Below are positions 33,963 through 64,000 of a stretch of 64,000 nucleotides of DNA, one piece after another; positions within the stretch are counted from its first letter, which is position 1; each line of letters starts with the position of its first letter. A program made the position numbers and the translations under genes. The notes under the pieces were generated by a model. It ran no database searches. It worked only from the letters and a program-made list of their open reading frames with translations, and had not been told where the DNA came from. The DNA is from Acidobacteriota bacterium (GTDB taxonomy: Bacteria > Acidobacteriota > Thermoanaerobaculia > Thermoanaerobaculales > Sulfomarinibacteraceae): contig JAJDNM010000090.1 of assembly GCA_022340665.1 (NCBI GenBank), forward strand, positions 1 to 64,000. Direction: 5' to 3'.

Positions 33963-34182
33963 GCTAGATACTCGTCTCTCGATACTTGTTTCTCGATACA
34001 GCCGCCCACCCGGCTTCGCCCACAGGCTTCGCCGTGGCGAGCCCCTTGCCAATGCAGCGAGACGACTTATGGATTTGTTGCATCCAGCATCCAGCATCCA
34101 GCATCCAGCATCCAGCATCCAGCATCCAGCATCCAGCATCCAGCATCCAAGTTCCAACATCCAACATCCAACATCCAACATC
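33963..34182. repeat. Heptad-repeat element H3 (CATCCAG type)
   Basis: Left array at 33963-33998 of TACTCGT/CTCGATA-like heptads, then CCGCCCACCCGG at 34002-34013 and repeats of CTTCGCC, then a long right array at 34081-34182: nine CATCCAG, one CATCCAA, GTTCCAA, three CATCCAA and a partial unit. It lies between the aminotransferase and the FAD/Fe-S gene, about 20 bases before the latter's start. Confidence 0.9.
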
Positions 34183-48492: not shown

Positions 48493-48515
48493 TTTAGCCC
48501 GCATTATTCATGAAG
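48493..48515 (-). promoter_or_regulatory. 20-bp signature, copy D (inverted)
   Basis: On the minus strand CTTCATGAATAATGCGGGCTA, ending 38 bases before the start at 48455. Faces copy A at 49226 across the FMN reductase gene; the two pair as inverted repeats with 21 of 24 bases matching. Confidence 0.75.
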
Positions 48516-48557
48516 TCACTACTGCGAGCCGGCCTGGGCTCCGGATCCGGTCCAGAA

Positions 48558-49106
48558 TTATTCCGTGTCGCGACACAATTGCCTGCAGAATAGGGCAAAA
48601 TCCAGGGTCGTTTCGCGAAGCCGATCGGCTATCTCCGGATCGGTGATTTTCCCGGAGCCATCGAGAATTTGGCCGATGGAAGGGATGAAACAACGTTTCC
48701 CGAACAGGTGAGCTCGGCGGTAATGGAAGACCAGCTCGAGCTGCTCGACGGCTCGCACACCGCCCCAACGGCCCGCTGAGATGCCGATGAATGCTGCGGG
48801 TTTGTCGTTCAGGCTATCCGGGAAGCTGAGCATGTCGATAAAGTATTTGACGACACCAGGGAATGAGCCGTTGTACTCGGGGACCACCATCAGCAGACCG
48901 TCGGTCTCAAGCATTTTCGACTGAAAAGTAGCGAAAGAGCGCGGAACCGATGCGTAGCTGGTGCTCTCGAACACTTCGAGTGGCAGTTCGGCGAGGTCGA
49001 GCAGGGCGGTGCTTTCTCCGGCCTCGTTGAGCATCTCGCATAACAATGCGGCGACCTTTCGGGAGTTCGAAGCTGGCCGATTGGTGCCTGATATGACGGT
49101 AATCAT
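48558..49106 (-). CDS. NAD(P)H-dependent FMN reductase
   Basis: 182 residues. Flavodoxin-like reductase: MITVISGTNRPASNSRKVAAL is the FMN-phosphate loop, VVPEYNGSFPGVVKYFIDML the dimer/FMN segment, and KPAAFIGISAGRWGGVRAVEQL the third. It belongs to the chromate/azo-reductase family. GGAG lies upstream of the ATG at 49106. It is bracketed by inverted copies of the 20-bp signature (48493-48515 and 49226-49248), so it may be a mobile or moved unit. Confidence 0.9.
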   Translation of the reverse strand: MITVISGTNRPASNSRKVAALLCEMLNEAGESTALLDLAELPLEVFESTSYASVPRSFATFQSKMLETDGLLMVVPEYNGSFPGVVKYFIDMLSFPDSLNDKPAAFIGISAGRWGGVRAVEQLELVFHYRRAHLFGKRCFIPSIGQILDGSGKITDPEIADRLRETTLDFALFCRQLCRDTE

Positions 49107-49225
49107 GGGTGTCTCCAATGCTGTGGTCGCCACCACAGGTTACGCGATCTTCGCACATCAGATCGAAATCGGATCTCCAGCGTGACCCTCGAGCTCAGCT
49201 CCCACCGTTGAATCACATGAGTCCG

Positions 49226-49248
49226 CTTCATGAATGATGCGGGTTAGA
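49226..49248 (+). promoter_or_regulatory. 20-bp signature, copy A
   Basis: CTTCATGAATGATGCGGGTTA, 20 bases before the M1/M28 peptidase start at 49268. Confidence 0.75.
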
Positions 49249-52660: not shown

Positions 52661-52715
52661 GCGAGAAACCGTCTGGTAGGATGGGTGCGCTGCCTCGTGG
52701 CCGTCGGCCTGCATC

Positions 52716-52738
52716 ATTCATGAATATTGCGGGCTAGA
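52716..52738 (+). promoter_or_regulatory. 20-bp signature, copy B
   Basis: ATTCATGAATATTGCGGGCTA, 14-15 bases before the NfuA start at 52751. Confidence 0.75.
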
Positions 52739-56898: not shown

Positions 56899-56912
56899 CC
56901 AACCGCGCATCC

Positions 56913-57108
56913 GATACTGGATGCTGGATACTGGATCCGGCCATCGGGCTTCGCCTTCGGACATACCGGGACGAGTCGCCGTTTGACAATGGCGGAGAAA
57001 TCTTCAGGCTCCGGGTGCATCCAGCATCCAGCATCCAGCATCCAGCATCCAGCATCCAGCATCCAGCATCCAGCATCCAGTATCCAGTATCCAGCATCTT
57101 GTATCTGG
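56913..57108. repeat. Heptad-repeat element H4 (CATCCAG type)
   Basis: Left array GATACTGGATGCTGGATACT at 56913-56938, a 79-base core with ATCGGGCTTCGCC, then a right array at 57018-57108 with exactly nine CATCCAG, two TATCCAG, CATCTTG and TATCTGG. The left array pairs with the right array over about 17 bases, so a stem is possible. The best-preserved copy in the window. Confidence 0.92.
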
Positions 57109-63499: not shown

Positions 63500-63593
63500 G
63501 GCTGAGCTCACCCCCCTCGGCTGATCCATGAACAAGGGCATTATAACGATTTCTCAGGGGTTAAAGGCACAACGGTCGGTGTAAAGTGTCACC

Positions 63594-63777
63594 GAGTCCG
63601 GACTATTTATGGGGTCTCGTGGCGAGGGCGGCGAGGTACTGTGGCCAGTGGGGTTTGCGACCCGAGGGGCGCGGAGGCGTACTTGAAGGTACGCTGAGCA
63701 CCCCGAGGCGAGCAAACACCGCTGGGTGGGGTGCATCGCCGACCGCAGCAGAGGCTTCATGAATAGTCCGGGCTAGG
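63594..63777. repeat. Imperfect palindromic element ending in the 20-bp signature
   Basis: Two 89-base arms (63594-63682 and 63689-63777) are imperfect reverse complements around a 6-base loop TTGAAG; the inner 6 bp GCGTAC/GTACGC are perfect. The outer right end is TTCATGAATAGTCCGGGCTA (copy C of the signature), the outer left end its degenerate inverse. No open reading frame fits. It precedes the nucleoside transporter gene by 12 bases. Confidence 0.85.
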
Positions 63778-63788
63778 GAGGTTCCTCC

Positions 63789-64000
63789 ATGCGGTTCATT
63801 GGTGTCCTCGGCGTGATGGTCCTGCTCGGTCTGGCATGGGCGATGTCGTATCACAAACGAGACGTGCGGCCGCGTGTCGTTTTGTGGGGTCTCGGTCTTC
63901 AATTCCTGTTTGCACTGATCATCCTGCGCAACGATTATTGGAGTTTTGTCGGAATGGGCGTTCTCGGCGTTCTCGTGGCGGTGTACGTGTTGCGTCGCGA
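63789..64000 (+). CDS. Concentrative nucleoside transporter, partial
   Basis: N-terminal 70 residues only; the gene runs past the window's end. Opens RFIGVLGVMVLLGLAWAMSYHKR, then VVLWGLGLQFLFALIIL, the pattern of the Na+/H+-coupled CNT (NupC) family's first helices. GGGAGG precedes the ATG, just after the palindromic element. Confidence 0.8.
   Translation, partial: MRFIGVLGVMVLLGLAWAMSYHKRDVRPRVVLWGLGLQFLFALIILRNDYWSFVGMGVLGVLVAVYVLRR

Follow-up and report, generated by a model that had tools for sequence, protein, structure and literature searches.

A hairpin-forming, gene-less element with IS1380-type ends: insertion at stop codons, exchange of ends and strand-biased pair changes

The stretch of DNA analyzed here (the window) comprises 64,000 nucleotides of contig JAJDNM010000090.1 from an Acidobacteriota bacterium of the family Sulfomarinibacteraceae. 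At its right edge begins the gene for a Na+-dependent nucleoside transporter, and a hairpin-forming element separates the ribosome-binding site of this gene from a promoter-like box upstream. The features of the site are as follows.

63580-63587, + strand: promoter-like box TGTAAAGT, putative -10 region; the same in siblings G016 and G018, one change in G019
63593-63596, no strand: left target copy CGAG, decayed, one change from CTAG; site empty in 3/3 siblings examined
63597-63611, + strand: left IS1380-type end TCCGGACTATTTATG (consensus CCCGGACTATTCATG)
63612-63752, + strand: hairpin core, 141 bp, from covariance model and fold energies
63677-63694, + strand: apical stem-loop GCGTAC-TTGAAG-GTACGC, the most conserved part across phyla
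63753-63772, + strand: right IS1380-type end, ending in TTCATGAATAGTCCGGG
63773-63776, no strand: right target copy CTAG (YTAR)
63789-64000, + strand: start of the Na+-dependent nucleoside transporter gene (Pfam PF01773, PF07670, and PF07662 on L001:1696-2826)

The original prediction described positions 63594 to 63777 as one long imperfect palindrome, and the hairpin proved to be real and far beyond chance. The interval folds end to end, with a z score of -6.8 as DNA; the + strand of the element folded as RNA gave -119.8 kcal/mol (z = -12.1), and in neither case was any of 200 shuffles as good. The predicted TTGAAG apex loop lies at 63683-63688. Folding of the - strand as RNA gave -83.0 kcal/mol (z = -6.7), and a covariance model trained on 39 copies scored the core at 156.7 bits on the + strand and 51.2 bits on the - strand; these models mark the + strand as the low-energy, RNA-like strand of the hairpin core. 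The element proper, at 63597-63772, is 176 bp long and contains no transposase gene. No Rfam family reached its gathering score in the window, and in 10 loci the only matches, at E values of 0.05 to 0.4, were to microRNA and snoRNA models far below gathering scores; these few were treated as chance, and a known Rfam RNA family was rejected for the element.

In the source genome (G000; 3.95 Mb, 153 contigs), a BLAST search returned 52 rows, some of which are opposite-strand rows of the same copy, and the covariance model returned 75 rows at an E value of ≤0.01, a figure that again counts some copies on both strands. The element is not a lone sequence without relatives; these counts indicate a gene-less mobile element present in dozens of copies, of which this is one, and the end signature that the copies had been said to share is likewise genuine (61 genome matches with ≤2 mismatches, versus 0 for a reversed control). 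The region around 63593-63776 is collinear in the three siblings examined (G016, G018, and G019), each of which lacks the element and reads GTGTC-N6-GGAGG; removal of the element from the window, leaving one target copy, likewise leaves 6 nt between GTGTC and GGAGG. With many copies, relatives, and empty sites, the reading as a repeated mobile element was right.

The TGTAAAGT box is predicted to act as a -10 region, and the copy is probably transcribed in the leader of the transporter gene, which it might, if it acts at all, affect. Its place downstream of a conserved promoter-like box and upstream of the ribosome-binding site would suit a role as a regulatory leader or terminator that the host has domesticated to serve the transporter gene. 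We regard such domestication as very unlikely, however, since the element is missing from this site in all three siblings examined and is carried at dozens of unrelated sites.

Three further sites in the window, at 48493, 49226, and 52716, had been proposed as solo relatives of the element. All three are relatives, but their solo status did not hold: the first two are the two ends of a single 746-bp unit, and the third consists of two fused ends without a core.

48494-49247, no strand: related unit of 746 bp with inward-facing ends, identical TTAG duplications (48494-48497 and 49244-49247), and an FMN-reductase ORF inside
48558-49136, - strand: ORF for an NADPH-dependent FMN reductase, within the 746-bp unit
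52708-52737, no strand: core-less remnant followed by CTAG; left and right ends joined (52708-52733)

The remnant has its ends fused at a shared TTCATGAA palindrome, and in both the remnant and the 746-bp unit CCCGCAT/CCTGCAT, a sister variant of the end, replaces CCCGGACT. The unit around the FMN-reductase gene resembles a passenger-gene cassette; G019 has an FMN-reductase gene beside end motifs at the matching place, and the matching intervals in G017 and G018 are too short to hold the gene. A conserved host operator was considered for the 49226 end and rejected: the motifs in G019 are of two nested types and that in G018 is of another, so that repeated insertion is the simpler reading. A separate repeat, CATCCAGCATCCAGCAT, occurs in tandem at 57014-57098 (also 56912-57098 and 33980-34161), with an inverted partner near 56910; it gave about 20 rows in the source genome, mostly 84 to 100% identical, and further rows in G018 and G019.

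Copies of the element end in CCCGGACTATTCATGA-, CCCGCATTATTCATGA-, or CCTGCATATCTCACC-like repeats. Among 111 paired elements, YTAR flanked both sides in 72, and the flanking 4-mers were identical in 53, versus 39 expected (2 of 10,000 permutations were as high); YTAR on one side was a requirement of the pattern by which many of the 111 had been found, and part of the YTAR excess therefore reflects selection, which affects the identity much less. CTAG/CTAG accounted for 45 of the 53 identical pairs. A scan of GTDB genomes with the end pattern found at least 119 stretches in many phyla, and among the matches listed was a complete 1,655-bp IS1380 from Sphingobium (L160) with the same ends, TTAG/TTAG flanks, and a transposase matching NF033539 (6.4e-130) and PF13701 (1.1e-168); it is the only end pair more than 1 kb apart in the 149 loci scanned. 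The target of IS701 is YTAR as well. IS701 was dropped as a helper, as L160 is an IS1380 and the IS701 model gave only 20.9 bits, below its cutoff.

Within the class of the source genome, Thermoanaerobaculia, 33 of 148 genomes had IS1380 matches. Matching end pairs were found at 3 of the 23 class IS1380 loci scanned, L238 (flanks CTAG/CTAG), L240 (TTAA/TTAA), and L241 (CTAG/TTAG); the other 20 had no acceptable matching pair, L242 and L256 being dropped as partners because their end pairs were loose. The ends of L238, GGTGAGAAATCCGGGCTAG, are of the GGTGAGA type and those of L241, TCATGAATAATGCAGGCTAG, match the TCATGAAT type, so that by sequence both main end types have a matching IS1380. PF13701 and NF033539 gave no match in the source genome assembly; an IS1380 helper is absent from the source genome or unassembled, which lowers the chance that the element is currently mobile there and leaves the end type unaffected. 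The only strong IS1380 at the level of the bacterial family, L253 in G012, has no such end pair, so no helper was seen beside its MITE. The element is short and multicopy, lacks a transposase gene, and has terminal inverted repeats, a target duplication, and an empty site; its assignment as an IS1380-type miniature inverted-repeat transposable element (MITE) is well supported, and we infer that an IS1380 transposase would mobilize it in trans.

A link to REP sequences and their associated transposase had also been suggested. REP/BIME sequences are short extragenic palindromic repeats in many copies, a likeness to the present element, but they are not known to have terminal inverted repeats or a target duplication. 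The source genome does hold five Y1_Tnp loci, and the one-strand bias described below would suit the single-stranded DNA substrate of such an enzyme (RAYT). The end motif was found near none of the five, however, and the inverted ends with 4-bp YTAR duplications match IS1380 elements and point to their DDE transposase instead. The link was rejected, and movement of a REP/BIME-type element by a RAYT is highly improbable.

The core and the ends have separate histories. The 141-bp core is about 73 to 91% identical in dozens of rows from sibling genomes, and the ends differ where read. The core model matches 19 of the 20 genomes of the bacterial family, G017 being the exception; the TTCATGAAT end, with one mismatch allowed, occurs in 8 of the 20. 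Twenty copies sampled from eight family genomes have ends such as CACTTCTCACC, GATATCTCACC, GACCTTCTCACC, and GAGTATTCACGA, nearly all within YTAR-CCCG-like tips. These comparisons indicate that the core persists while transposon ends are swapped between species; the cleavage tip would be fixed, and the inner, transposase-binding part would vary with the transposase. Single copies have been rearranged in other ways. The 5' half of one (L044/L017, G000:C13 near 34750) has been replaced by a segment that presumably represents the start of an IS481-type transposase ORF. Identical stretches in L071 (G017:C277) and L082 (G010:C102) belong to metagenome-assembled genomes (MAGs) assigned to different genera, and one of the two MAGs is therefore probably contaminated.

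Positions of insertion were compared with reading frames by scoring frames of ≥110 codons that end at an element boundary, with boundaries shifted outward as controls; copies with short flanks were left out (4 of 90 from Nitrospira, 5 of 40 from siblings). In Nitrospira, frames ended at 58 of 172 boundaries (86 copies) versus 17 of 688 controls (Fisher P = 8e-30). The corresponding figures were 14 of 40 boundaries (20 copies) versus 7 of 160 in the source genome (P = 8e-7) and 15 of 70 (35 copies) versus 8 of 280 in the siblings (P = 1e-6). The frame usually ends exactly in a target TAA or TAG. Insertions are strongly enriched exactly at stop codons: TAA or TAG is part of the YTAR target, and duplicating the target rebuilds the stop. 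YTAR targeting thus offers a simple explanation of how an element can insert in high copy number without harm. With orientation scored against the gene that ends at the boundary, insertions in Nitrospira were antisense in 40 cases and sense in 18 (P = 0.005), and in the source genome the ratio was 10:4; a general orientation bias is not claimed, however, given 7:8 in the siblings. The five Nitrospira genomes searched held 4 to 50 matches each, with at most 40 first-look candidates scored per genome, which suggests that such elements shape many gene 3' ends.

Changes within the hairpin were examined in alignment A2, made from 47 core matches with 8 omitted as truncated, interrupted, assembly-damaged, or duplicate (L014, L016, L017, L026, L027, L075, L087, and L223). 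Both sides had changed in 14 of 34 pairs, in 54 cells versus 12.8 in shuffles. The direction of change was counted as parsimony events at strand-symmetric Watson-Crick pairs, taken from the consensus aligned against its own reverse complement rather than from RNAalifold, because RNAalifold chooses its pairs with G-U allowed; related copies are not fully independent here, and the parsimony count only reduces the effect of kinship. Changes from Watson-Crick to G-U outnumbered those to A-C by 133 to 40 in Sulfomarinibacter and relatives (75 of 78 sequences; P = 7e-13) and by 74 to 41 in Nitrospira (85 of 90 sequences; P = 0.003). At unpaired sites the matching transition classes were reversed, at 77:125 and 35:51, respectively (Fisher P for paired versus unpaired, 1e-8 and 0.006). 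A first Nitrospira subset of 30 copies gave 32:22, which was not significant (P = 0.22), and A>G versus T>C alone was not significant either (P = 0.27). The bias was stronger on internal branches (50:10) than on terminal ones (157:71; Fisher P = 0.035), as expected if the copies under selection are those that go on transposing.

An ordinary decaying IS1380 MITE could produce some of this, with the hairpin a by-product of its inverted-repeat origin and the arms kept similar by template switching or interarm gene conversion rather than by selection on RNA. Deleted and fused forms occur among the copies, and one copy (L079 1501-1682, in G011) has its central apex segment inverted relative to its relatives, which implies that the hairpin arms do recombine. 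Hairpins are, moreover, common among bacterial MITEs according to PMC2229807. Neither arm homogenization nor neutral decay favors one strand, whereas both sets show more changes to G-U than to A-C on one strand, the one bearing shared motifs in two phyla, and the opposite trend at unpaired sites. We therefore consider simple decay unlikely. The core seems instead to be selected as a folded RNA or as one strand of single-stranded DNA, mainly in lineages that still transpose. G-T is milder than A-C in DNA too, so single-stranded DNA is also compatible with the bias; RNA is the most likely candidate for the selected molecule.

The motifs referred to above were compared in 55 paired elements of 100 to 300 bp from the GTDB scan. 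Among the matches listed, the low-energy strand carried the 5' motif TCGTCGCGA (two changes allowed) in 29 of the 55, the 3' motif GCAGCAGA in 18, and the apex GGC-stem-loop-stem-GTCGA(G/C) in 16; the opposite strand carried them in 3, 3, and 0, respectively. The apex stems differ in a compensated manner (GTAC, ATAC, ATCC, GACC, AACC, and GTAG). The core model from the element's own class matched 22 of 37 loci at an E value of ≤0.01 (23 rows), loci that were picked for holding paired ends, so that the fraction is no survey frequency. The matches include Nitrospira, Planctomycetota (L145, L174, and L184), Gammaproteobacteria (L221), Krumholzibacteriia (L227), and Desulfobacteraceae (L203). A bolder reading, which we hold only tentatively, is that the core is a cross-phylum mobile RNA or single-stranded DNA fold that rides successive IS1380s by changing its ends and needs its folded strand for propagation; the core would then be recognizable in Acidobacteriota, Nitrospirota, Planctomycetota, Desulfobacterota, Krumholzibacteriota, and Gammaproteobacteria.

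The explanation that we favor, and consider probable as a whole, joins a MITE with IS1380 ends moved in trans, YTAR and stop-codon targeting, a strand-specific selected hairpin, and a core that swaps its ends. Cleavage at the CCCG.../...CGGG tips would come from an IS1380 DDE transposase supplied in trans, and the element would insert into a palindromic YTAR target, mostly CTAG, with duplication of 4 bp. A large share of the surviving copies would lie exactly in stop codons restored by the duplication. The one-strand-specific core hairpin would be selected for folding, most likely as RNA or else as one strand of DNA, above all where transposition in the lineage continues, and the core would outlast individual transposases by taking on new end types. 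The repeat family, its ends, its target duplications, and its empty sites are evident from comparison of the copies, and so, by the same comparison, are the exchange of ends around a persisting core, insertion in stop codons, and strand-biased pair changes; the last three appear to go beyond an ordinary MITE.

We found no description of the element in the literature on IS1380 MITEs, Nitrospira MITEs, structured RNA, and stop-codon insertion (subscription journals aside), and term counts in the accessible text of a 2024 MITE review (PMC10969869) gave no mention of IS1380, Nitrospira, or stop codons. Compared with the IS1380 family (PF13701 and NF033539), the element has the same terminal inverted repeats and 4-bp YTAR duplications as four complete IS1380 elements; it differs in having no transposase gene, a length of 176 bp rather than about 1.65 to 1.75 kb, and a hairpin core. 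For IS1247, of the same family, PMC3281130 gives a duplication of 5 bp. ERIC/IRU, as described in the available text of PMC2229807 and PMC10969869, is likewise an intergenic hairpin MITE, of about 127 bp, with a reported orientation-dependent effect on transcripts; its ends are different, with 5'TA3' termini, it is reported from Enterobacteriaceae and Vibrionaceae, and an IS1380 link goes unmentioned in those portions. BOX and RUP of Streptococcus pneumoniae, in the portion of PMC3049150 available, are also small hairpin repeats with proposed movement in trans by resident IS elements, and 36 BOX copies supply the stop codon of a gene; they differ in being modular or AT-rich, in their proposed helpers (ISSpn2 and IS630-Spn1), and in being confined to one species group. 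The usual view of a bacterial MITE is that of an inert remnant left by a single transposon within a single lineage. Here, the core structure appears conserved across phyla, the transposon ends swapped, and selection on pairs strand specific, which raises a testable question: does a gene-less transposon depend on its RNA or single-strand fold?
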